DNA from: Micromonospora sp. C31
GTDB taxonomy: Bacteria; Actinomycetota; Actinomycetes; Mycobacteriales; Micromonosporaceae
DNA length: 64,000 bases
Reading direction: 5' to 3'
Assembly (NCBI RefSeq): GCF_018070575.1
Contig: NZ_JAGPXN010000001.1
Span: 62,001-126,000, forward strand
The translations under genes and the position numbers were made by a program. This document shows, piece by piece, positions 772 to 17,175 of the stretch; the stretch's first letter is position 1, and each line of letters begins with the position of its first letter. The notes below the pieces were generated by a model. It searched no databases and was not told the DNA's origin. It saw nothing but the letters and a program-made list of their open reading frames with translations.

Positions 772-2016
772 TCAGTCGCCGACGGATGTTCGCAGGGCGT
801 CGACCACGTCCCCGACGACCACCACGGCCGGCGGGCGCAGGCCCGCGGCGAGCACGTCGGCGGCCACCGCGCCGAGCGTGGACCGCAGCACCCGCTGCGC
901 CCCGGTCGTCGCCTCCTGCACCACGGCGGCCGGCGTCTGCTCGGGCCGGCCGTGCGCGATCAGCGTCGCGGTGATCGCCGCGAGGTTCTTCAGCCCCATC
1001 AGGACGACCAGCGTGCCGCGCAGCCCGGCCAGCGCGTCCCAGTGGACCAGGGAGGCCGGCGAGTCGGGCGCGACGTGCCCGGAGACCACGGTGAACTCGT
1101 GGGCCACCCCCCGGTGGGTGACCGGGATGCCCGCCGCTGCCGGAGCCGCGATCGAGCTGGTCACGCCCGGCACCACGGTCACCGGCACACCGGCCGCCGC
1201 GCAGGCCAGCAGCTCCTCGCCGCCACGACCGAAGACGTACGGGTCGCCGCCCTTGAGCCGGACCACGAACTTCCCGGCCAGGGCCCGGTCCACAAGGATG
1301 CGGTTGATCTCCTCCTGCGCGCGGGACGGGCCGTACGGGATCTTGGAGGCGTCGACGAGTTCGACGTCGGCGCGCAGCTCGTCGAGGAGCAGCCCCGGGA
1401 CGAGCCGGTCGGCGACCACCACGTCCGCCTCGGTGAGCAGCCGCCAACCCTTGACGGTGATCAGCTCCGGGTCCCCGGGGCCGGCGCCGACCAACGCCAC
1501 CCGCCCGCCCCCGGTGCAAGGAAGGGACCCTTCCTCTACCACAGGCGTTAACAAGGTGCCCTTCCTTACATCCAGCAGGGCGCGGATCGCGTCGCGGACG
1601 GCCATCGCCCGGCGCGGGTCGCCGCCGCCGAGCACCGCCACGGTCACCGGCCCGTGCCGGGTCACCGCCGGGGTCCAGGCGGTGGCGGCGGCCCGGTCGT
1701 CGGCGCGTACGCAGAAGATGCGGCGCTCGGCGGCGGCGGCGCTGACCGACGCGGCGGCGAGCGGGTCGTCGACCGCGACCTGGACCAGCCACGCGCCGTC
1801 CAGGTCGTCGGGGGCGAACCGGCGCGGCGCCCAGTGCAGCCGTCCGGCGTCGGCGTGCGCGCGCAGCGCCGGGGTCAGCTCCGGCGCGACGAGCAGGACG
1901 TGCGCGCCGGCGTCGAGCAGGGCCGGCACCCGCCGGGTGGCCACCGTTCCCCCGCCCACCACGACCACCCGCCGGCCGGCGAGCCGTAGGCCGAGCGGAT
2001 ACGGGTTGCCGCTCAC
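772..2016 (-). CDS. cysG: Precorrin-2 dehydrogenase / uroporphyrinogen-III C-methyltransferase fusion
   Basis: About 414 residues. The first ~150 residues form an NAD-binding precorrin-2 dehydrogenase-like domain (RRVVVVGGGTVATRR). The rest is a SAM-dependent uroporphyrinogen-III methyltransferase: VALVGAGPGDPELITVKG, RLKGGDPYVFGRGGEE and the conserved PGVTSSIAAPAAAGIPVTHR. Together they convert uroporphyrinogen III to precorrin-2 and sirohydrochlorin for sirohaem and cobalamin; cobA would be an alternative name. The linker between domains (about residues 150-167) is encoded by a palindromic repeat element. GTG at 2016 is chosen because it begins right before the conserved N-terminal strand; an in-frame GTG at 2031 is possible. 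The gene follows cobT by about 70 bases and is likely the last gene of the cobC-cobT-cysG operon. Confidence 0.9.
   Translation of the reverse strand: MSGNPYPLGLRLAGRRVVVVGGGTVATRRVPALLDAGAHVLLVAPELTPALRAHADAGRLHWAPRRFAPDDLDGAWLVQVAVDDPLAAASVSAAAAERRIFCVRADDRAAATAWTPAVTRHGPVTVAVLGGGDPRRAMAVRDAIRALLDVRKGTLLTPVVEEGSLPCTGGGRVALVGAGPGDPELITVKGWRLLTEADVVVADRLVPGLLLDELRADVELVDASKIPYGPSRAQEEINRILVDRALAGKFVVRLKGGDPYVFGRGGEELLACAAAGVPVTVVPGVTSSIAAPAAAGIPVTHRGVAHEFTVVSGHVAPDSPASLVHWDALAGLRGTLVVLMGLKNLAAITATLIAHGRPEQTPAAVVQEATTGAQRVLRSTLGAVAADVLAAGLRPPAVVVVGDVVDALRTSVGD
1518..1567. repeat. 50-bp palindromic element inside the cysG linker
   Basis: The element is bounded by 9-bp inverted repeats, AAGGAAGGG at 1518-1526 and CCCTTCCTT at 1559-1567. 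The left end contains a near-perfect small palindrome, AGGAAGGGACCCTTCCT (1519-1535), and the right end AAGGTGCCCTT. Between them is a GTTAAC palindrome. It lies in frame and encodes the interdomain linker. I recall very similar sequences between genes in Micromonospora and Salinispora genomes; that recollection was not checked. Confidence 0.7.
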
Positions 2017-2086
2017 GCCGCCGCCCCGCACCGCTGCCGGACGCCGGCGCGGCTCACCATGCCACCGGGCACGACGGTTCGCCCGT

Positions 2087-3181
2087 TCACTTCTCGGCCA
2101 CCCCCGCCGAGTCGAAGGTGGCGACCTCGTGCAGCACCCGGACCGCGCCGGTGACCACCGGCAGGGCGAGCAGCGCGCCGGTGCCCTCGCCCAGACGCAG
2201 CCCCAGGTCGATCAGCGGCTCCAGGCCCAGCCGGCGCAGCGCGACGGTGGCCCCCGGCTCGGCGGAGCGGTGCCCGGCCACCATGGCGGCCACGGCGTGC
2301 GGGGCGAGCGCCGCCGCGGCGAGGGCCGCCGAGACCGCGATCACCCCGTCCAGCAGCACCGGCGTGCGGCGGGCGGCGGCGCCCAGGATCAGCCCGGCCA
2401 GCGCGGCGTGTTCCAGGCCGCCGACGGCGGCCAGCACGCCCAGCGGATCGGCCGGGTCGGGGGCGTGCCGGCGCAGCGCGGCCCGCACGACGGCCACCTT
2501 GCGGGCGTACGTCGGGTCGTCGACCCCGGTGCCCCGGCCGGTCGTCCCCGCCGGGTCGATGCCAGCGAACGCGGCGATCAGGGCGGCGGCGGGCGTGGTG
2601 TTGCCGATGCCCATGTCGCCGGTGAGCAGGATGCCCGCGCCGGCGTCGATCAGCTCGTCGGCCACCCGGATGCCGGTCTCGACGGCCGCTCGGGCCTCGT
2701 CCCGGGTCAGTGCGGCGGTCACCGCCAGGTCCCGGGTGCCGGGGCGGACGTTCGCGGTGACCAGCCGGGGCACGTCGCGGGTCGGCGGGGCTCCGGCGCC
2801 CTCCTCGCCCGGCGCGGCGGCCGGGAGCGGGGTGGCCACGCCGACGTCGACCACGGTGACCGAGGCGCCGGCCTGCCGGGCGAACGCGTTGACCACCGCG
2901 CCGCCGGCCAGGAAGTTGCCGATCATCTGCGCGGTGACCTCCTGCGGCCAGGGCGTCACCCCCTGGGCGTGCACGCCGTGGTCACCGGCGAAGATCGCGA
3001 CGGCGGCCGGCTCGGGCAGCGGCGGCGGGCAGTGCCCGGCCAGGCCGGCGAGGCGTACGGAGAGTTCCTCCAGGGCGCCCAGCGAGCCGGCGGGCTTCGT
3101 CAGCCGTCCCTGCAGCTCCCGGGCGGCGGCCATCGCCGACTCGTCCGGCGGCCGGATCGCCGCGATCGTGGTTTCCAACAT
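2087..3181 (-). CDS. cobT: Nicotinate-nucleotide:dimethylbenzimidazole phosphoribosyltransferase
   Basis: 364 residues, the usual length. CobT transfers the phosphoribosyl group of nicotinate mononucleotide to 5,6-dimethylbenzimidazole, making alpha-ribazole phosphate for the lower nucleotide loop of cobalamin. Recognisable parts are LTKPAGSLGALEEL near the N-terminus, FAGDHGVHAQGVTPWPQEVT, GDMGIGNTTPAAALIAAF in the middle and, near the C-terminus, DLGLRLGEGTGALLALP, which carries the expected catalytic Glu. ATG at 3181 is chosen: it overlaps the TGA of the upstream aminotransferase gene by one base (TGATG), which points to translational coupling. A TTG one codon upstream is less likely. Confidence 0.95.
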   Translation of the reverse strand: MLETTIAAIRPPDESAMAAARELQGRLTKPAGSLGALEELSVRLAGLAGHCPPPLPEPAAVAIFAGDHGVHAQGVTPWPQEVTAQMIGNFLAGGAVVNAFARQAGASVTVVDVGVATPLPAAAPGEEGAGAPPTRDVPRLVTANVRPGTRDLAVTAALTRDEARAAVETGIRVADELIDAGAGILLTGDMGIGNTTPAAALIAAFAGIDPAGTTGRGTGVDDPTYARKVAVVRAALRRHAPDPADPLGVLAAVGGLEHAALAGLILGAAARRTPVLLDGVIAVSAALAAAALAPHAVAAMVAGHRSAEPGATVALRRLGLEPLIDLGLRLGEGTGALLALPVVTGAVRVLHEVATFDSAGVAEK

Positions 3182-4275
3182 CAAGCCTCCAGGATCTCCG
3201 CCAGTACCTCGGTGAACGCGTCGGTGGTGGCCGGGTCGCGCACGGCGACGCGCAGCCAGTCCGGGCCGAGCCCGGGGAAGGTGTCGCCCCGGCGTACCGC
3301 CCAGCCGCGCCGCCGCAGGGCGAGCCGCACGGCTGCCGCACCGGGGACGTGCACCAGCACGAACGCGCTGGCGGGGCGGCCGGCGACGCGTACGCCGGGC
3401 AGGGCCGACAGGCGGGCCACCAGGTGGTCGCGGTCGGCGGCGAGCCGGGCGGCGATGGCGCGCTCGGCATCGACCGCGACGGGCGTGGCGCAGGCCGACG
3501 CGGCGGCCAGGGCGGGGGTCGAGACGGCCCAGAGGGGCTGGGCGGCGGCCAACCGCTCCAGCAGCGCGGCCTCGCCGAGCAGGTAGCCGATGCGCAGGCC
3601 GGCCAGGCCCCAGGTCTTGGTGAGGCTGCGGACCACCAGCAGGCCGGGCAGGTCCCGCCGGGCGGCCAGCGACTCCGGTTCGCCGGCCACGCCGGGAGCG
3701 ACGGTGGTGTCGGCGAACGCCTCGTCGACCACCAGCACCCGGCCGGGGCGGGTCAGGGCGGCCAGGTCGGCGGCGGGGTGCAGCACCGACGTCGGGTTGG
3801 TCGGATTGCCGATCATGACGAGGTCGGCGTCGGCGGGCACCCGGGCCGGGTCGAGCCGGAAGTCGTCGTCGGCGTCGAGCAGCACCCGCTGCACCCGGTG
3901 CCCGGCGGCGCGCAGGGCCGCCTCGGGCTCGGTGAACTGCGGGTGCACCACCACGGGCCGGCGCACGCCGGTCAGCGCCCGGGCGAGCAGCACGAAGGCC
4001 TCGGCCGCGCCGGCGGTCAGCAGCACCTCGGCGGGTGGACGGCCGTGCCGGGCCGCGACGGCCGCCCGCGCCGGCCCAGGGTCGGGGTACGCGGCGAGGT
4101 CGCCGAGCGCGGCGGTGATCGGGTCGGCCAGCCAGTCCGGCATCGCGTCGCGCCGTACGTTGACGGCGAGGTCGACCAGCCCCGGCTCCACCTCGGCGTC
4201 GCCGTGGTGGGCGAGGTCGGGTTCGTCTCCGGTGGGCCCCGGTTCGGGGCGGGTCTCGGTCGGCTGACCACGCAT
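3181..4275 (-). CDS. cobC: PLP-dependent aminotransferase, CobC-like (threonine-phosphate decarboxylase family)
   Basis: 364-residue class I/II aminotransferase. Characteristic parts are LAVNVRRDAMPDWL at the N-terminus, VMIGNPTNPTSVLHP, VVDEAFADTT, and VVRSLTKTWGLAGLRIGY containing the lysine that should bind pyridoxal phosphate. Homologues next to cobT and cobQ/cobD are annotated as L-threonine-O-3-phosphate decarboxylase (CobC/CobD type), which makes the aminopropanol linker; the histidinol-phosphate aminotransferase family is closely similar, so the reaction rests on context. ATG at 4275 begins the conserved region; the upstream open frame looks non-coding. First gene of the cob operon and divergent from the penicillin-binding protein gene. 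Confidence 0.85.
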   Translation of the reverse strand: MRGQPTETRPEPGPTGDEPDLAHHGDAEVEPGLVDLAVNVRRDAMPDWLADPITAALGDLAAYPDPGPARAAVAARHGRPPAEVLLTAGAAEAFVLLARALTGVRRPVVVHPQFTEPEAALRAAGHRVQRVLLDADDDFRLDPARVPADADLVMIGNPTNPTSVLHPAADLAALTRPGRVLVVDEAFADTTVAPGVAGEPESLAARRDLPGLLVVRSLTKTWGLAGLRIGYLLGEAALLERLAAAQPLWAVSTPALAAASACATPVAVDAERAIAARLAADRDHLVARLSALPGVRVAGRPASAFVLVHVPGAAAVRLALRRRGWAVRRGDTFPGLGPDWLRVAVRDPATTDAFTEVLAEILEA

Positions 4276-4396: not shown

Positions 4397-6529
4397 GTGA
4401 GCAACCGACCCCTTGCTGCCGCTCGTCGTCTCGTTCCTCTCCTCCGCGCCGGACTGATCGCCGGCATCGTGGTCGCCGCCGTGGCGTACCCGGTGGCCGC
4501 CGCCACCGGCCTCGGCGCCAAGGCGACGGCGCACGCCATGGAACACAAGACCCAGATCCTCACCAGCGCGCTGCCAGCCGAGACGTCGTACGTCTACGCC
4601 CCGGACGGCAGGACGGTGCTGACGATGTTCTACGAGGAGTACCGGCAGTACACGAAGCTGGCCGACATCTCGCCGCACATGCAGCAGGCGATCGTCGCCG
4701 CCGAGGACAACCGCTTCTACCAGCACCGGGGCGTCGACCCGAAGGGCGTGGCCCGCGCCTTCGTGGCGAACGCCCGCTCCAGCGGCGTCTCCCAGGGCGC
4801 CTCCACGCTCACCATGCAGTACGTGCGGATGGCGCTGCGGGACAGCGCGAAGACGCCCCAGGAGGTGCAGGAGGCCACCCAGCAGACCAGCCTGCGCAAG
4901 GTCCGGGAGATGCGGATGGCGATGGACCTGGAGAAGGAGCTGGACAAGGACCAGATCCTGGAGCGTTACCTCAACTCCGCGTACTTCGGGCACCGCGCGT
5001 ACGGCATCTACGCGGCCAGCGAGATCTTCTTCTCCAAGGCCCCCAAGGACCTCACCCCCGTCGAGTCGGCCACCCTCGCCGGTCTGGTCAAGTCGCCGTC
5101 CGAGTACGACCCCGCCAGCTCGGACCAGAAGGACGCCACCGGCCGGCGCAACTACGTCCTCGACCGGATGGCCCAGCTCGGCTACCTCTCGCCGGACGCC
5201 AAGGCGCAGGCGAGGAACGAGCCGATCCGGCTGAAGCTGACCCACCCGCCGAACGACTGCGCCGCCGTGCCCGAGAAGTGGAACAGCTGGGGCTTCGCCT
5301 GCGACTACCTGAAGAACTGGTGGAGCGCGCAGCCCGCATTCGGGGAGAACCGGCTGGAGCGGATGGACAAGCTGCGCCGGGGCGGCTACCGGATCGTGCT
5401 CAGCATGGAGCCGAAGATCCAGGAGGCGGCCGAGAAGAACGTCGGCGCCAAGGAGAACACCGGCAGCCCGTTCGCCAACGGCATCGTGGTCTCCGAGCCC
5501 GGCACCGGGCGGGTCAAGGCGATGGCGGTCAACCGGACGTACTCGCTGGACCTGAGCGAAAACGGGCAGAGCTCCAACCCGGAGGCCGGGCCGAACGTCA
5601 AGGCGAACTACCCGAACACCGTGGCGCCCCTGCTCGGCGGCGGCGACCTGCCGGGCTACCAGGCCGGGTCCACGTTCAAGATGTTCCCGATGCTGGCCGC
5701 GCTCAACGAGGGCATGCCGCTGTCCACCTCCTTCAACGCGCCGCACCGGTACCGCTCCGAGGTCTACGACGGCTGGGCGCCGTCCAACGCCAGCGGGGCG
5801 ATGAGCGGCAACCAGACCATGTGGTCCGGCTTCGGCAAGTCGGTGAACACGTACTTCGTGTGGCTGGAGGAGCAGGTCGGCGCGGACAAGGCGGTCCGCC
5901 TCGCCGAGCAGCTCGGGCTGCGCTGGCGCACCGACGTCGACCGGGAGCACGCGTCCCCGGCCAAGGCGAAACAGTGGGGTGCGTTCACCCTCGGCGTCTC
6001 CGACGCGACCCCCCTGGAGATGGCCAACGCGTACGCCGCGATCGCCGCGGACGGCCGCTACTGCGAGGCGATCCCGGTGCAGGCGATCTACAACCGCGAC
6101 GGCACGCCGACCACCTGGAAGACGGCCTCCGGGATCGAACGCGAGGTCGCCAAGCCGCGCTGCCGGCAGGTGGTGAACGCCGACGCCGCCCGCGCCGCCA
6201 CCGACGCCGCCCGCTGCCCCACCGGCGACACCCCGGCCCGCGGGAGCTGCGGCGGTTGGTCGACCGCCGACAGCGTGCGGGGCACCGTCGGCCGCCCGGT
6301 GGCGGGCAAGACGGGCACCACCGACAGCACCCGGTCGGCCTGGTTCGTCGGCTACACCCCGGAACTGGCGGCGGCGAGCTTCATCTCCGACCCGGACAAC
6401 CCGTTCAACGCGGTCGGCGACGGCCAGTCGCAGATCCCGATCAAGGCGGTGGCGCAGACCCTCCGTGACGGCCTCAAGGGCCAGCCCACCCGCCAGTTCA
6501 CCGCGCCCTCGGACCGCATGGTCGGCTGA
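4397..6529 (+). CDS. Class A penicillin-binding protein (glycosyltransferase 51 plus transpeptidase)
   Basis: 710 residues, membrane-anchored, acting outside the cell in peptidoglycan synthesis. A short cytoplasmic stretch is followed by one hydrophobic segment (about residues 15-37). The GT51 domain polymerises lipid II: AAEDNRFYQHRGVD contains its catalytic Glu, and QGASTLTMQYVRM follows. The transpeptidase domain crosslinks peptides: AGSTFKMF carries the SxxK serine, GKSVNTYF the SxN motif, and VAGKTGTTD the KTG motif. All catalytic motifs are intact. There is no obvious PASTA domain at the C-terminus. The GTG start is chosen because it precedes the anchor and follows the promoter-like AT-rich spacer. 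It converges with the cobB-like gene. Confidence 0.92.
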   Translation: MSNRPLAAARRLVPLLRAGLIAGIVVAAVAYPVAAATGLGAKATAHAMEHKTQILTSALPAETSYVYAPDGRTVLTMFYEEYRQYTKLADISPHMQQAIVAAEDNRFYQHRGVDPKGVARAFVANARSSGVSQGASTLTMQYVRMALRDSAKTPQEVQEATQQTSLRKVREMRMAMDLEKELDKDQILERYLNSAYFGHRAYGIYAASEIFFSKAPKDLTPVESATLAGLVKSPSEYDPASSDQKDATGRRNYVLDRMAQLGYLSPDAKAQARNEPIRLKLTHPPNDCAAVPEKWNSWGFACDYLKNWWSAQPAFGENRLERMDKLRRGGYRIVLSMEPKIQEAAEKNVGAKENTGSPFANGIVVSEPGTGRVKAMAVNRTYSLDLSENGQSSNPEAGPNVKANYPNTVAPLLGGGDLPGYQAGSTFKMFPMLAALNEGMPLSTSFNAPHRYRSEVYDGWAPSNASGAMSGNQTMWSGFGKSVNTYFVWLEEQVGADKAVRLAEQLGLRWRTDVDREHASPAKAKQWGAFTLGVSDATPLEMANAYAAIAADGRYCEAIPVQAIYNRDGTPTTWKTASGIEREVAKPRCRQVVNADAARAATDAARCPTGDTPARGSCGGWSTADSVRGTVGRPVAGKTGTTDSTRSAWFVGYTPELAAASFISDPDNPFNAVGDGQSQIPIKAVAQTLRDGLKGQPTRQFTAPSDRMVG

Positions 6530-6617
6530 GCGGTGGCGGCAGCGGTCAGCGCGCGTACCTCGGTGCGGGGCGTGGAGACCGTCAGCGCCGGGAAGCGCCG
6601 GACCGCCACCTGACCGA

Positions 6618-8015
6618 TCATGCGGGCACCCCGTCGGGCCGGGTGGTCACGGGCTCGGCCGCCGCGTCCACGAGGCGGGCCGCGAGCCGCGGGTGTGCCG
6701 CCCAGTGCAGGGTGAGCTGCGAGGCGTGCACGCCCCGCCAGACGAAGCCCTCGGGCGCCCCGCCGTCCCAGCTCCACGCCGGCCGCGCACCGGCGCGCGG
6801 GGTGAGCACCGCGCTGTGCTCCTTGTGCCCGGCCACCACCGTGCCCGCCGGCCCCACGAGGCCGCCGGTCAGCGCGGTCGCCTCCCGGTAGCCCACCACC
6901 AGGCCGTCGCGGCGCGTGCCCACCGCGTCGAGCACGCCGCACATGGGCAGCCCGTCCAGTTCCCGGGCCAGCCAGAGCAGGCCGGCCCCCTCGGCCACGA
7001 CGGGCCGCCCGGTGCGGGCCAGCTCGGCGACCGCGATGCAGAGCCGACGGTTGGCGGAGAGCTGCCCGGCGTACGACTCGGGCAGCCCGCCGCCGACGAC
7101 CAGCGCGCCGGTGCCGGCTGGCAGTGCCTCGTCGTGCAGCGGATCGACCGTCACCACCTCCGCGCCGGCCGCCCTGAGCAGCTCGACGGTCTCGGGGTGG
7201 CTGTAGCTGCCGCCCGGCGTCCCGGCGACCGCGACGACGGGGCGCGGCCCGGACGCCGCCGGCCCGGACGCCTCCCGCCCGACCTCCGGCGTCCAGCACG
7301 GCGCGGGCAGCGGCGGGGCGGAACGGGCCAGACCCAGCAGCCGGTCCAGCTCGACGGTGGCGGCGACCGCCTCGCCGAGGCGGCGGACCGCGCGGGTGGC
7401 CTCGTCGGTACGGGCGAGCGCGGGCACCGCCCCGTACCGGCGGGCGGGCAGCACGGACGGCAGGTCCTGGCGGCGCAACGCGCCGTAGACCGGCACGCCG
7501 ATGTCGTCGAGCGCCTCGCGCAGCAGCTCCTCGTGGCGCGAGGAGGCCACCCGGTTCAGGATCACCCCGCCGAGCCAGAGCTGCTCGTCGTACGACCGGA
7601 AGCCGTGCACCAGGGCGGCCACCGACTGCCCCGTCGCGGCGACGTCGACCACCAGCACGACCGGGCTGCGCAGCGCGACGGCCACGGCGGCGGTCGACTC
7701 GCTCTCCGGGCGGCCGGCGAGACTGTCGTACAGGCCCATGCTGCCCTGCACCACGGCGAGCCCGGCGCCGGCCGCGCCATGGCCGACGAGCGGGACGATC
7801 CGGTCGGCGCCGACCAGCCGGGGGTCGAGGATCCGACCGGGGCGACCGGCGGCCAGCCCGAGGTACGCGGCGTCGACGCGGTCGGGGCCGACCTTGAATC
7901 CGGCGACGTCGACGCCCCGGTCGGCGAACGCGGCGAGCAGCCCGATCGCCAGCGCGTTCTTGCCGTGGCCGGAGGACGGCGCGCTGAGCACCAGACGCGG
8001 CACGACGGTCATCAT
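6618..8015 (-). CDS. CobB/CbiA-like protein with substituted catalytic motifs
   Basis: 465 residues, colinear with cobyrinate a,c-diamide synthase (CobB): P-loop N-terminal domain and glutamine amidotransferase C-terminal domain. The overall similarity is clear (KVGPD, NLD-like ILDPRLVG, MGLYD, VALVHGF-type core, ELDGLPMCGVLDA, GVHAS). Key positions differ: the P-loop reads SSGHGKN (usually GKT/S), GPDYIDPGY is GPDRVDAAY (residues 43-51), the VEG motif is VQG (Gln90), the nucleophile motif AECxG is AEGAG so Gly343 replaces the catalytic Cys, and HEFH is HKEH. I checked these codons in the DNA. It may be a non-catalytic or repurposed paralogue, or an ammonia-dependent enzyme. Start: two adjacent ATGs behind AGGGAG. 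Confidence 0.8.
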   Translation of the reverse strand: MMTVVPRLVLSAPSSGHGKNALAIGLLAAFADRGVDVAGFKVGPDRVDAAYLGLAAGRPGRILDPRLVGADRIVPLVGHGAAGAGLAVVQGSMGLYDSLAGRPESESTAAVAVALRSPVVLVVDVAATGQSVAALVHGFRSYDEQLWLGGVILNRVASSRHEELLREALDDIGVPVYGALRRQDLPSVLPARRYGAVPALARTDEATRAVRRLGEAVAATVELDRLLGLARSAPPLPAPCWTPEVGREASGPAASGPRPVVAVAGTPGGSYSHPETVELLRAAGAEVVTVDPLHDEALPAGTGALVVGGGLPESYAGQLSANRRLCIAVAELARTGRPVVAEGAGLLWLARELDGLPMCGVLDAVGTRRDGLVVGYREATALTGGLVGPAGTVVAGHKEHSAVLTPRAGARPAWSWDGGAPEGFVWRGVHASQLTLHWAAHPRLAARLVDAAAEPVTTRPDGVPA

Positions 8016-8179: not shown

Positions 8180-8261
8180 GCGGATGCGTCAGGGCCCCTG
8201 CCGGGCCCGGCAGGGGGCTGTCGAAGCGAGTGCCTCCGGTCACCGGGGTAGCCTCGTGGGC

Positions 8262-9083
8262 GTGTACCGGTTCCTGCTGACGCCGCGCTGGCTGGGCATT
8301 CTCGCGCTGACCCTGATCGCCGCGGCGGTGATGGTGCTGCTCGGCAACTGGCAGCTGGACCGCTACCACGGCCGCACGGAGATCAACGAACGGATCGACG
8401 CCGGCCTGCGGATGGACCCGGTGCCGCTGCGTGACGTGCTGCCCGCCCCGACCGGCGGCAGCGGCACGGCGGGCCCCGCCCCCGCCGCCGAGAACGCCTG
8501 GACCAAGGTCACCGTGACCGGCCGCTACGACCCGGCGAACGTGGTCCTGGTCCGCGGGCGCTCGGTGGATCGCACGGTCGGCTTCGAGGTGGTCACCCCG
8601 CTGGTGCTGGCCGACGGCACCGCCGTGCTGGTGGACCGGGGCTGGATCCCGCCGAAGCGGGGCGGCGACGCGACCGTCCAGCCGGACGTGCCGGCCCTCC
8701 CGCCCGGCGAGGTCACCGTGACGGGGCGGGTGCACCTGAGCGAGAGCGGCTCGGTCGCCGTGACCCGGCGGGACGGCAAGCTGGAGACCCGGCGGATCGG
8801 CGTGCCCCGGCTGGCCCGTGAGCTGCCCTACCCGGTGCACGGGGCGTACCTGCTGCTGGACGAGCAGGCCCCGGCCGCCGACCCGGTCTTCAAGGACGTG
8901 CCGGTCGGATACACCAACAACTGGCAGAACTTCGGCTATGTCGTGCAGTGGTGGATCTTCGCCGCGATGACCCTGTTCGGCTACGGCTGGGTGGCCCGCC
9001 GGGAGGCCCGCCGGCTGGCGGGCGTGAAGCCGACGCGGCCCGTCGACCGGGCCGCCGAGCCCACGCCGCAGGGCGCCGCCTGA
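8262..9083 (+). CDS. SURF1-family membrane protein
   Basis: 273 residues. SURF1 proteins assist assembly of the haem-copper cytochrome c oxidase in the membrane. The protein has the classic architecture: an N-terminal transmembrane helix (LGILALTLIAAAVMVLLGNWQ) with the typical GNWQLDRY junction, an extracytoplasmic beta domain containing GRYDPANVVLVRGR and AVLVDRGWIPP, and a C-terminal helix preceded by NNWQNFGYVVQWWIFA. Length and topology agree with the family. GTG at 8262 is used; another GTG two codons upstream is equally possible, and no strong ribosome binding site decides it. It converges with the ligase gene only 18 bases away. Confidence 0.9.
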   Translation: MYRFLLTPRWLGILALTLIAAAVMVLLGNWQLDRYHGRTEINERIDAGLRMDPVPLRDVLPAPTGGSGTAGPAPAAENAWTKVTVTGRYDPANVVLVRGRSVDRTVGFEVVTPLVLADGTAVLVDRGWIPPKRGGDATVQPDVPALPPGEVTVTGRVHLSESGSVAVTRRDGKLETRRIGVPRLARELPYPVHGAYLLLDEQAPAADPVFKDVPVGYTNNWQNFGYVVQWWIFAAMTLFGYGWVARREARRLAGVKPTRPVDRAAEPTPQGAA

Positions 9084-12752: not shown

Positions 12753-13376
12753 TCAACGGCGACGCACGTAGTACCGGGTGGCGTCGTGCGGCAGGCCGGG
12801 GGCGCCGTCGACCACCAGGTCCGCGCGCGCCTCGGTGTCGTCCGCGGCGAAGTGCGACCGCTCCCCGAGGTGCCAGCGGCGCAGCTCGGGCAGGATCCCC
12901 GGGCCGTCGCGCTCCAGCGCCCGGGCCAGCCGCAGCGGCGCCGGGGCGGTGACGAAGACGCCCAGGGTGAGGTCCGCGGCGACGGCGGCCCGCGCCGCGC
13001 TCACCCCCTCGACGAGGAGCACCGGCGCGACCGGAACCGGCACCGGGCGCGGCAGGAAGGCCCGCCGCACCCAGCTGTACCGGCGGTACGACCCCGGCCG
13101 TCCCGCCCGCACCGGTCCGAGCACCCACTCCTCCAGCCGGGGCCAGAAGGTGAGCTGGTCTTCCCAGCCGTCGAGCAGGTCGTCGGTGTGCACCACGGGG
13201 GGCGGGCCGCCACCGGGCAGGGCGGCGAGGGCGTCCGCGAGCCGCGCCGCGAACACGCTCTTGCCCGCGCCGCTCGGCCCGTCCACCGCCACCAGCCGGG
13301 TCCGTCCCAACCGCGCCGGCCCGGCGAGCACCCGCCGGGCCAGCCGGTCGTACGCCTCGATGACCGCCACCGCCAC
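12753..13376 (-). CDS. Uridine-kinase-like P-loop NTPase
   Basis: 207 residues. VAVDGPSGAGKSVFAARLADAL is split here as GPSGAGKS, a canonical Walker A loop at about residues 31-38; VVHTDDLLDGWED follows as the kinase-type acidic strand, and LLVEGVSAARAAV resembles the Walker B region of uridine kinase and phosphoribulokinase folds. Proteins of this type are often annotated uridine kinase-like in Micromonospora, but the phosphate acceptor is not known. GTG at 13376 is proposed; another GTG lies two codons downstream. The upstream frame is long only because of base composition. Downstream lies a strongly C-rich spacer. Confidence 0.75.
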   Translation of the reverse strand: MAVAVIEAYDRLARRVLAGPARLGRTRLVAVDGPSGAGKSVFAARLADALAALPGGGPPPVVHTDDLLDGWEDQLTFWPRLEEWVLGPVRAGRPGSYRRYSWVRRAFLPRPVPVPVAPVLLVEGVSAARAAVAADLTLGVFVTAPAPLRLARALERDGPGILPELRRWHLGERSHFAADDTEARADLVVDGAPGLPHDATRYYVRRR

Positions 13377-13561
13377 GTGGCCGACGGTAACCAGCCCGGA
13401 TCCCCGGCCACCGCCCGGGCCGGAGTTGGCGGGGAACGCGTCGCCAGCGGGCCCGCTGGCGATCGGGGGTCGCCCGAACGAGCGGTCGTCGGGTGGGCCG
13501 GGGCGTTCGTCGGGCGGAGCCCGGAACGGGGCGGGATGATCTGCTGGTGTCCCACAGCGTG

Positions 13562-14183: not shown

Positions 14184-15725
14184 TCAGAGACCTCCCGGGG
14201 CTCCGGGTGGGATGAAGGGAAGGGTGGCGGGCGGGCCGGACTCGACGAGACGCCAGAGGGCGTCGGTGTCGAGGTGCTCCTCGACCAGGTCGCCGAGCAG
14301 GTCCAGGGAGCGCTCGCGGACGGCGGCGAAGGCCGTGTCGGGGGCCACCGTGAAGCCGGTCCGGCCGGCGAGCCGGGCCACCTCGGTCAGGAAGCGGCGG
14401 CGGAACCCGTCGGACTCGAAGGCGCCGTGCCAGTGGGTGCCGTGCACGGCGCCCAGCACCGCCCCCTCGCCGCTGCCGTCCGCGCAGGTCAGCAACGGGA
14501 TCAGTGCCGGGTCGGCGTGGGAGACGTACCCGTGGTGGATCTCGTAGCCGCGGACCGGGACGTCGCCGGCGGTGCCGGTCGACCGGCGGACGGTCTTGCG
14601 CGGGTCGAAGGTGACCTCGATCGGCAGCAGGCCCAGCCCCGGCACGCTCCCCTGCCGGCTCTCCACCGGGTCGTGGATCGCCCGGGCCAGCATCTGGAAG
14701 CCGCCGCAGATGCCGAGCAGCGGCCTGCCCGCCGCCGCGTGCGCCAGTACGGCTTCGGCCAGGCCGGTCTGCCGCAGCCAGGCCAGGTCGGCCACGGTCG
14801 ACTTCGAGCCGGGCAGTACGACCAGGTCGGCGGCGGCCAGTTCGGCGGGCTCGACGGTCAGCCGGACCCGTACGCCCGGCTCGGTGGCGAGCGCCTCGAC
14901 GTCGGTGGCGTTGCTGATGCGGGGCAGCCGGACCACGGCCACGTCCAGCCAGTCGGTGCCGCGCGGGGCGGCCGGCCGGCCGAGCAACCGCCCGTACGCG
15001 AGCGAGTCCTCCGCGTCGAGCCAGAGGTCGAGCGCCCAGGGCAGCACCCCGTACGTCGGGCGACCGGTGACCTGGCGCAGCATGTCCAGCCCCGGCCGGA
15101 GGAGCCCGAGGTCGCCCCGGAACTTGTTGATCACGAAGCCGGCTATCAGTGCCTGGTCGGCCGGGTCCAGCAGGGCGAGGGTGCCGAACATCGACGCGAA
15201 GACCCCGCCCCGGTCGATGTCGCCGACCACGATCGTGGGCAGGTTGGCGTGCCGGGCCAGGCCCATGTTCACGTAGTCGCCGGCCCGCAGGTTGATCTCC
15301 GCCGGGCTGCCGGCCCCCTCGCAGATCACCACGTCGTACGCGGCCCGCAACTCGGCGAGCGCCGCGTACGCCGTCTCGGCGAGCCGGGGCCGCAGTTCGC
15401 GGAAGTTGCCGGCGGTGACCGTGTCGACCGCCTCGCCGAGCAGCACCACCTGGCTGGCCAGGTCGCTGCCGGGCTTGAGCAGCACCGGGTTGAACCGCAG
15501 GTCGGGGGCGAGGCCGCAGGCGGCGGCCTGCATCGCCTGCGCCCGCCCGATCTCGCCGCCCCGGCCGTCCGGGCCGACGACGACGGCGGAGTTGTTGGAC
15601 ATGTTCTGCGCCTTGTACGGCGCCACCTTCACGCCCCGGCGGTGCAGCCAGCGGCAGATGCCGGCGGTGAGCACGCTCTTGCCGGCGTCGGAGGTGGTGC
15701 CGGCGACCAGGAGTCCACCGCTCAC
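14184..15725 (-). CDS. cobQ: Cobyric acid synthase
   Basis: 513 residues. CobQ amidates adenosylcobyrinate a,c-diamide at positions b, d, e and g using glutamine and ATP. The N-terminal ATPase domain has [19 protein letters not shown] (P-loop), [23 protein letters not shown] and [13 protein letters not shown]. The C-terminal glutamine amidotransferase domain keeps its nucleophile in [11 protein letters not shown] and the catalytic His in GYEIHHGYV. In contrast to the CobB-like protein of this window, all motifs are intact. The GTG start overlaps the TGA of cobD by four bases (GTGA), indicating translational coupling in a cobD-cobQ operon. Similar ATPases in MurT/GatD are shorter. Confidence 0.95.
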
Positions 15726-16741
15726 CGGCGGCTCCCCCGCCCCGTCGCCACCGCGATGCTCCCGCCGACGGCTCGGCGGCCGACGGCGCCCGCCAGCCGG
15801 CCGAGGGTCAGCGGGTACGCGGCGGCGAGCCCGAGCGCGGCCAGCCCGACCGCGCCCGAGATCCGGGCGGCCCGCTTGAGGTGCCGCGCCTCGGGCCGGG
15901 GGCCGTCGCCGAGGAACGGGCGCACCTCGGAGCGCCCGAAGTAGACGTTGCGCCCACCCAGCCGTACGCCGAGGGCACCGGCCATCGCCGCCTCGCACTG
16001 CCCGGCGTTCGGGCTGGGGTGGTCGTCGCGGTCCCGGCGCCACACGTGCAGCGCCCGTTCCCGGTCGCCGTACGCGGTTGGCGCGACCACGACGGTGAGC
16101 AGGCCCGTGAGCCGCGCGGGCACCAGGTTGAGCAGGTCGTCGAGGCGGGCGGCAGGAGTGCCGAAGCGGGCGTACCGCGGCGAGCGGTGGCCCACCATCG
16201 CGTCGAGGGTGTTCGCCGCGCGGTACCCGAGCAGACCGGGCAGTCCCGCGACGGCGCCCCACAGCAACGGGGCGACCACCGCGTCCGAGGTGTTCTCGGC
16301 GAGCGACTCGACGGTGGCGCGGGCCAACTCGGGCTCGTCGAGCGCGGACGGGTCCCGACCGCAGAGGTGGCCGAGCCGCTGCCGGGCGGCCGGGAGATCG
16401 CCGGCGCGCAGCGCACGGCCCATCACGGTGGCCTCGCGCCGCAGCGTGCGCCCGCCGAGCACCGTCCAGGTGCCGGCGGCGACCAGGGCCGCCCGGGCCA
16501 CCGGCCGACGGCGGGTGGCGACCGAGGCGGCCACCCCGGCCAACACCGGCGTGCCGACCGCGAGCGCGGTGAACGCCGCTCCGGCCAGCCGGTCCGGGCG
16601 GTACATCCGCCGCTCCAGGGCCCCGGCGGCGCGGCCGAACCCGGCCACGGGGTGGTACCGGCGGGGGTCGCCGAGGAGCACGTCCAGGGCGTATCCCGCG
16701 ACCAGTCCCGCCGCGGTCGCCACCGGCGTCGCCTGTCGCAC
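15722..16741 (-). CDS. cobD: Adenosylcobinamide-phosphate synthase (CobD/CbiB)
   Basis: 339 residues. This integral membrane protein attaches aminopropanol (or its phosphate) to adenosylcobyric acid, giving adenosylcobinamide. Signatures are [20 protein letters not shown] at the N-terminus, [19 protein letters not shown] in the middle, [15 protein letters not shown], and [20 protein letters not shown] followed by a C-terminal hydrophobic region. GTG at 16741 is chosen because GGAGG lies nine bases before it. First gene of the coupled cobD-cobQ operon. The product works directly before or after CobQ and on the linker made by the CobC-like enzyme encoded around 3.2-4.3 kb. Confidence 0.93.

Positions 16742-17175
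<434 letters not shown>

Follow-up and report, generated by a model that had tools for sequence, protein, structure and literature searches.

A conserved CobB-derived paralogue with altered active sites in Micromonosporaceae, likely a pseudoenzyme

CobB/CbiA, the cobyrinate (hydrogenobyrinate) a,c-diamide synthase, is a two-domain enzyme in which Glu90, Asp45, Asp48 and the P-loop Thr play roles that we take, from work on CbiA and dethiobiotin synthetase, to be in Mg2+/ATP activation. DsrN and CfbB, homologues of CobB/CbiA that act on another tetrapyrrole, retain the amidotransferase nucleophile. Another member of the family, CobBC, is fused to a CobC-like domain. Amidation of siroheme and of the F430 cofactor (precursor) by DsrN and CfbB is described in PMC10504309. 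In GatD (MurT–GatD), according to PMC5871853, glutaminase activity requires Cys94 and His189, and mutating the matching Cys abolishes it.

The gene studied here occupies positions 6618..8015 on the minus strand of the window (the whole stretch of 64,000 nucleotides of Micromonospora DNA that was analysed) and encodes a CobB/CbiA-like paralogue of 465 residues; we call this protein and its clade CobBv. CobBv resembles CobB/CbiA in its two-domain architecture, its length and the shared residues Asp45, Asp48, Asp97 and His400, and is about 55% identical to the canonical CobB of the same genome, but it lacks the nucleophile Cys, carries a Lys by the catalytic His and has Leu instead of His after GPDxxDxxY; in Micromonospora, it lacks Glu90 and the standard P-loop as well. 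The altered sites of the window protein, all on the minus strand, are (i) the P-loop, SGHGKN (residues 15–20, 7956..7973 as derived from codon positions), canonically SGxGKT; (ii) GPDRVDAAY (residues 43–51, 7863..7889), canonically GPDYIDPGY, where Asp45 and Asp48 are kept and the next residue is Leu52, not His; (iii) VQG (residues 89–91, 7743..7751), canonically VEG; (iv) Gly343 (6987..6989) at the amidotransferase nucleophile site, canonically Cys; (v) HKEH (residues 397–400, 6816..6827), canonically HEFH, with Lys398 invariant in the CobBv rows examined. The codons at these sites are AAG (Lys19), AAC (Asn20), CGC (Arg46), GCC (Ala49), GCG (Ala50), CAG (Gln90), GGG (Gly343), AAG (Lys398) and GAG (Glu399). 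An earlier note on this DNA had given the same coordinates and the same five motifs, to which we add the strand; its wording that almost every catalytic motif is altered is slightly too strong, as the window protein retains the P-loop Lys, Asp45, Asp48, Asp97 and His400 (the last His of HxxH), all but the first of which are kept in the 73 CobBv rows of the tree described below.

Pfam finds both expected domains in the window protein, CbiA (51.6 bits, cut-off 25.4) and GATase_3 (37.4 bits, cut-off 27), in the two-domain architecture. It passes the NCBIfam profile NF002204/PRK01077 (338.5 bits, cut-off 254), lies just under the cut-off of TIGR00379 (253 versus 261.4) and scores 238 bits with the profile of CfbB, the Ni-sirohydrochlorin a,c-diamide synthase (NF033195), for which the cut-off is 560. 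Its best NCBIfam score is with CobBC NF053748, 457.2 bits over profile positions 1–446 of 797, below the cut-off of 950; CobBv has a CobC-like gene nearby, recalling CobBC, but is not fused to a CobC-like domain and has altered active-site residues. DsrN and CfbB are comparable as CobB/CbiA homologues turned to another tetrapyrrole, but CobBv lacks the nucleophile, and no dsr genes, with which DsrN is associated, were found among the identified neighbours of the window gene. A sequence search of solved structures with CobBv gave three weak PdxT/YaaE matches only (E 0.11–0.26). PRK01077 matches each of the 34 proteins in the CobBv alignment at E below 1e-5; misannotation as CobB may therefore be widespread.

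A search of the window genome (G000, 84 contigs, 99.96% complete), proposed in the earlier note, turned up a second, intact cobB on another contig (G000:C81:169024-170361), and the window protein is therefore a paralogue. The motifs of this canonical CobB are all standard (SGHGKT, GPDYIDPGY, VEG, AECAG and GHEFH), and near it lie a CobM/CbiF match (C81:167289-168029) and CbiC (C81:162207-162758). Canonical CobB proteins of the genus (L112-L117, L266 and L267) are of two kinds that separate in the tree, one about 82–100% and the other about 63–65% like that of the window genome; the two examined members of the second kind, L266 and L267, lie in open frames of more than 750 residues and are possibly CobBC fusions. 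Note that the Cys-bearing CobB proteins of family f13 (L242, L243 and L244), found in over-long open frames of 607–687 residues, read GHVFH rather than GHEFH, so not every Cys-bearing CobB has Glu398.

In a quick maximum-likelihood tree (LG+G4) of 143 rows, CobBv forms a single clade of 73 rows (SH-aLRT 100), all from Micromonosporaceae, a restriction that holds for the tree rows, the order-wide search (160 matching genomes) having been motif-read in part. Genus rows were thinned for this tree, matches shorter than 350 residues and frames with at least two stops were dropped beforehand, and four duplicate loci were omitted. The nucleophile Cys is substituted in 73/73 CobBv rows (63 Gly, 6 Ser and 4 Asn at position 343) versus 0/70 canonical rows, none of which has an AEG-type motif. 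Position 398 is Lys in every CobBv row versus 67 Glu and 3 Val in the canonical set, and position 52 is Leu in every CobBv row versus 69 His and 1 Ala. Variation is wider at position 90 (53 Glu, 13 Gln, 4 Ala, 2 Gly and 1 Lys) and at P-loop positions 19 (65 Lys and 8 Thr) and 20 (57 Thr, 8 Asn, 5 Ser and 3 Gly), which are Glu, Lys and Thr, respectively, in all 70 canonical rows. Asp45, Asp48, Asp97 and His400 are invariant in both sets. Parsimony on the tree requires a minimum of four changes at Glu90, three at Cys343, two at Lys19 and seven at Thr20.

A second sample drew on records named Micromonospora or Asanoa and on genomes of the same genus, and gave 119 CobBv rows, recognised by their Lys398; all 119 were retained. 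Gly343, Lys398, Asp45, Asp48, Asp97 and His400 are present in all of them and Gln90 in 114, the five Glu90 rows being four from Asanoa plus L098; the P-loop Lys site is Lys in 75, Thr in 43 and Arg in 1. The title of record L098 is Micromonospora sp. NBRC 107566, but its sequence is the same as that of the protein of G164, a genome placed in another genus. Since Gly343 and Lys398 are found in 119/119 and Gln90 in 114/119 relatives, sequencing error is ruled out, and a single-strain pseudogene is rejected as well, the altered residues being fixed in relatives. What might have undone the earlier note's observation, namely AEG motifs in canonical CobB, an error at these codons or a variant peculiar to one strain, was thus not encountered. 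CobBv is likely a conserved, family-wide, CobB-derived pseudoenzyme, more than a lone odd gene. No description of such a CobB paralogue was found in the literature searched (open-licence papers, by titles and the starts of abstracts).

All 73 CobBv rows lack the nucleophile, from which it follows that glutaminase chemistry would have been given up at or before the base of the clade; its loss across the whole clade is strongly supported by the residues. The ATP site (GK[TS] together with Glu90) is intact in 53/73 rows and lost in 13/13 Micromonospora rows, among them the window protein with GKN and Gln90; for Micromonospora CobBv, loss of the ATP/Mg site is likewise strongly supported at the level of residues. 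Glu90 is replaced by Ala or Gly in genus g34 (L157, L160, L161, L162, L164 and L165) and by Lys in L137 (G157). It has thus been lost on three separate occasions, in Micromonospora, in genus g34 and in G157, and the gene was kept each time. These patterns suggest that glutaminase activity is absent in every CobBv, that ATP-driven activation is absent in the Micromonospora proteins and that a binding function would remain. The window protein is most likely a pseudoenzyme, and we hold with moderate confidence that CobBv at large may be a CobB-derived pseudoenzyme uncoupled from ring synthesis, which would bind a corrinoid, a related tetrapyrrole or a partner protein.

The reading that survives best beside this one, which we nevertheless consider rather unlikely, makes CobBv an ATP-dependent ligase for another nucleophile or substrate (free ammonia, an amine or a non-cobyrinate tetrapyrrole such as siroheme), of which the Micromonospora versions would be a late degenerate branch. 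The three separate losses of Glu90 with retention of the gene and the Thr found at the P-loop Lys site in 43/119 rows are difficult to accommodate, and DsrN and CfbB, its natural precedents, are nucleophile-bearing. In its favour are the 53 tree rows with an intact ATP site, the invariance of Asp45, Asp48 and Asp97, the CysG/CobA-type gene nearby and the precedent of DsrN and CfbB, CobB homologues that took on new tetrapyrrole substrates (PMC10504309). A new ligase, one of the suggestions of the earlier note, could exist in genera that keep GKT and VEG.

In the window, CobBv is flanked by a divergent SURF1 gene (8238..9083, plus strand, start approximate) and a convergent gene for a bifunctional penicillin-binding protein (4397..6529, plus strand). 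Beyond the latter lie, all on the minus strand, genes for a CobC-like class I/II aminotransferase (3181..4227, start approximate, the CobC name being inferred from context), CobT (DBI_PRT, 2087..3184) and a CysG/CobA-type uroporphyrinogen III methyltransferase with an NAD-binding domain (772..2031, named from two Pfam domains). The minus strand also carries CobQ (14184..15725), which keeps all its motifs (DAGKS, CEGAGS, GxCGG and GYEIHHG) as noted earlier, and a CobD/CbiB-like protein (15722..16807, named from reading the translation). A P-loop kinase-like protein (Pfam PRK/uridine kinase, 12753-13391, minus strand) is found again in related loci, placed between peptidase M20 and CobQ. Genes cobC, cobT, cysG/cobA, cobQ and cobD share the window stretch with CobBv, with no demonstrated operon, and the nearest genes are SURF1, the penicillin-binding protein gene and often a GNAT acetyltransferase; the B12 link of CobBv would accordingly be one of homology and of cob genes in the same stretch. 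Control by a B12 riboswitch was considered and rejected, no cobalamin riboswitch being found at gathering thresholds in the window or in L032, L090, L150, L157, L173 and L179.

The placement of CobBv between divergent SURF1 and the penicillin-binding protein gene, with cobC, cobT and cysG/cobA beyond, recurs in most CobBv loci compared; the layout is partly different in Asanoa (L090), in L173, L175, L177 and L178 and in the Ser-type clade (L179, L180, L182, L187, L196 and L202). CobBv is cleanly absent from five loci (L300, L301, L302, L304 and L305), where the gap between the penicillin-binding protein gene and SURF1 is 72–131 bp, and remnants are seen in G103 (a piece of the C-terminus only) and G047 (residues 2–82); CobBv is dispensable.

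A GNAT gene (Pfam Acetyltransf_3) occupies the same SURF1–penicillin-binding protein interval in 113 of 180 counted loci, some genomes being counted twice. The remainder are 53 loci with CobBv without GNAT, 3 with a GNAT relic (the window, its copy L001 and L241), 1 with GNAT and a truncated CobBv, and 10 with neither, four of them Asanoa loci with CobBv outside the measured interval. Wherever both genes were compared, GNAT lies downstream of CobBv on the same strand, except for a weak match in L187; in the genus, it often starts within about 110 bp of the CobBv end (e.g. L003:2907-3464), and in two loci read base by base its start overlaps the CobBv stop (ATGA). This overlap is kept in the window, where a relic of about 30 codons (6529..6621, minus strand), 93% identical to the protein of a relative, is all that is left ahead of the point where the penicillin-binding protein gene ends; in relatives, the GNAT gene is intact. 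Given the 53 loci with CobBv without GNAT and the three relics, GNAT was rejected as an obligate partner of CobBv.

Among 151 genus genomes, CobBv is present in 135, canonical CobB in 96 and CbiC in 94. All three occur together in 78, but CobBv does not simply follow ring synthesis, being found in 50 genomes with neither recognised canonical CobB nor CbiC (hereafter CobBv-only genomes). Five genomes have CobBv and canonical CobB without CbiC, two have CobBv and CbiC without canonical CobB (G010 and G051, drafts of 800 and 590 contigs), 13 have canonical CobB and CbiC without CobBv, two have none of the three and one has CbiC alone. The genome lists of this cross-table were compiled by hand. 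The 16 genomes scored as lacking CobBv comprise 13 with none and remnants in G023, G047 and G103; the G023 fragment lies in a 990-contig draft and may reflect an assembly break, and in G112 and G147 the expected site extends past the end of the contig, absence there being a search result alone. Genes with apparent frameshifts (G038, G039 and G049) or split or at contig ends (G014, G053, G069 and G076) were counted as CobBv-present, as were partial (e.g. G006, G014, G022, G148 and G150) or two-piece (G049) genes for canonical CobB. The assemblies of G049 and G148 contain several broken conserved genes, including cobT, cobC or SURF1 as well as canonical cobB; this points to indel errors more than to real gene loss. 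Canonical CobB was searched at E 1e-60, a threshold that a more distant CobB would escape; at E 1e-5, with ten candidates scored per genome, 46/50 CobBv-only genomes give a single CobB-type match. The other four are G080 and G107, where one gene aligns in two pieces, G129, with a second match, and G123, which carries a third, distant CobB homologue (L310, G123:C521:5750-7126) with the P-loop (GKT) and the Cys (AECGG), 42% identical to canonical CobB, in a genome lacking CbiC. CbiJ (PF02571) proved useless as a marker of ring synthesis, being found in 9/151 genomes although CbiC is found in 94; TIGR01465 was used instead, with 90/151 over cut-off and a difference from CbiC in six genomes. Intact CobBv is missing from 13/96 genomes with canonical CobB versus 2/52 lacking both canonical CobB and CbiC (Fisher p 0.09, uncorrected for kinship), a difference from which we draw no claim.

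No CobBv-only genome has CobM/CbiF over cut-off (0/50). CobQ matches are found in 49/50 of them and in 147/151 genomes overall, some partial or broken (e.g. CobQ of G007 and G040), CobS matches likewise in 49/50, some partial or broken, and the B12-dependent methylmalonyl-CoA mutase family is present in 151/151. CobBv-only strains look B12-requiring, able to finish B12 and unable to build the ring. Nearly all of them keep CobQ, although they apparently cannot make its usual substrate. Of the functions offered in the earlier note, a non-catalytic one agrees with the clade-wide glutaminase loss and the ATP/Mg loss in Micromonospora and a new ligase is hard to reconcile with the data, but a strict partner of CobB is contradicted by 52 genomes of the genus in which CobBv is found and canonical CobB is not recognised; one of these, G123, has a distant Cys-bearing homologue.

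CobBv might instead serve another amidotransferase, CobQ being the most likely one, as its non-catalytic subunit or its regulator, a reading that we regard as improbable. The retention of CobQ in genomes apparently unable to make its substrate would fit such a role, and the CobBv-specific Arg211, Arg212 and Arg225 could form an interface; against this, CobQ occurs without CobBv in the five loci from which CobBv is cleanly absent.

Nei–Gojobori omega values between the window CobBv and its relatives are 0.20 (G085), 0.23 (G125), 0.32 (G095), 0.25 (G140), 0.20 (G093) and 0.26 (G130), compared with 0.18 (G085), 0.16 (G125), 0.17 (G095) and 0.25 (G140) for canonical CobB and 0.09 for CobQ in G085. 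Purifying selection acts on CobBv, a little less tightly than on canonical CobB, since its omega exceeds the canonical value in three of the four matched pairs and equals it in the fourth. Twenty canonical proteins share 164 columns conserved at 95% or more, and 34 CobBv proteins keep 102 of these at 90% or more; mean column identity is 67%, as in the canonical set, although the sampling of the two sets differs. Leu52, Gly53, Leu189, Arg211, Arg212, Arg225 and Lys398 are specific to CobBv (at least 95%, rare in canonical CobB). AlphaFold2 models have mean pLDDT values of 91.2 for CobBv and 90.9 for canonical CobB. The best solved Foldseek matches to the CobBv model are CTP synthases and GatD, with dethiobiotin synthetase lower; GatD should match the C-terminal half of the model and dethiobiotin synthetase the N-terminal half. 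CobBv differs from GatD in having Gly at the Cys position. The idea that change in this protein was selective rather than random, put forward in the earlier note, is borne out by the single clade, the conservation of the variant residues, the omega range of 0.20–0.32 and the intact predicted fold.

A decaying relic of a duplicated cobB, a view already largely refuted, is therefore very improbable: loss or truncation in a minority of genomes, the apparent frameshifts in G038, G039 and G049 and the free variation of the P-loop within the genus would suit decay; against it stand a full-length open frame in most genomes, omega well below 1, the column identity, the clade-specific conserved residues and the confidently predicted fold. 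That CobBv is an ordinary CobB with harmless substitutions, standing in for the missing canonical enzyme, is hardly credible and already contradicted: passing PRK01077 would suit it, but the nucleophile and Glu90 are missing, and 50 of the 52 genomes with CobBv and no recognised canonical CobB also lack CbiC, for which the substitute role was rejected.

Coming back to the pseudoenzyme reading, we propose that a cobyrinate a,c-diamide synthase paralogue lost glutamine-dependent amidation at or before the base of the clade; the sequences show Cys replaced by Gly, Ser or Asn and the Glu next to the catalytic His changed to Lys. The ATP/Mg2+ carboxylate-activating site has stayed intact in most other genera examined and has been lost too in Micromonospora, where Glu90 has become Gln, the P-loop Thr Asn, Gly or Ser, and in part the Lys Thr. 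CobBv keeps its predicted fold with Asp45, Asp48 and Asp97, and persists in genomes that appear to have lost the corrin ring pathway and true CobB but retain late B12 genes and a family of B12 enzymes. Its job may be the non-catalytic binding of a corrinoid, a related tetrapyrrole or a partner, on the uptake or assembly side of B12 metabolism; a binding role appears likeliest because the fold and the acidic residues are kept and the gene persists in ring-less genomes with late B12 genes. A corrinoid as ligand is a guess, prompted by the origin of the fold in an enzyme of cobyrinate and by the unchanged Asp45, Asp48 and Asp97. Weighing against the reading are the nature of the nearest genes, the negative riboswitch search, the dispensability of the gene, its looser constraint and the distant CobB homologue of G123. 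More tentatively still, this CobB-derived pseudo-synthetase, often with GNAT close behind, might now be a corrinoid or tetrapyrrole sensor, chaperone or carrier in B12-salvaging bacteria.

If relatives also pass the PRK01077 rule, annotation-based B12 prediction would credit CobB to about 50 of the 151 genus genomes, which have neither recognised true CobB nor CbiC. The CobBv clade offers a natural series, from ATP-site-intact to ATP-site-lost proteins, for asking what role a synthetase fold plays after its chemistry is gone, and the retention of CobQ in ring-less genomes is a testable companion question. CobBv draws attention to a protein so far unrecognised in actinomycetes that apparently salvage B12; if it is a sensor, chaperone or carrier, the CobB fold would have gained a new, non-enzymatic role in bacteria relying on salvage of B12 rather than on building it.
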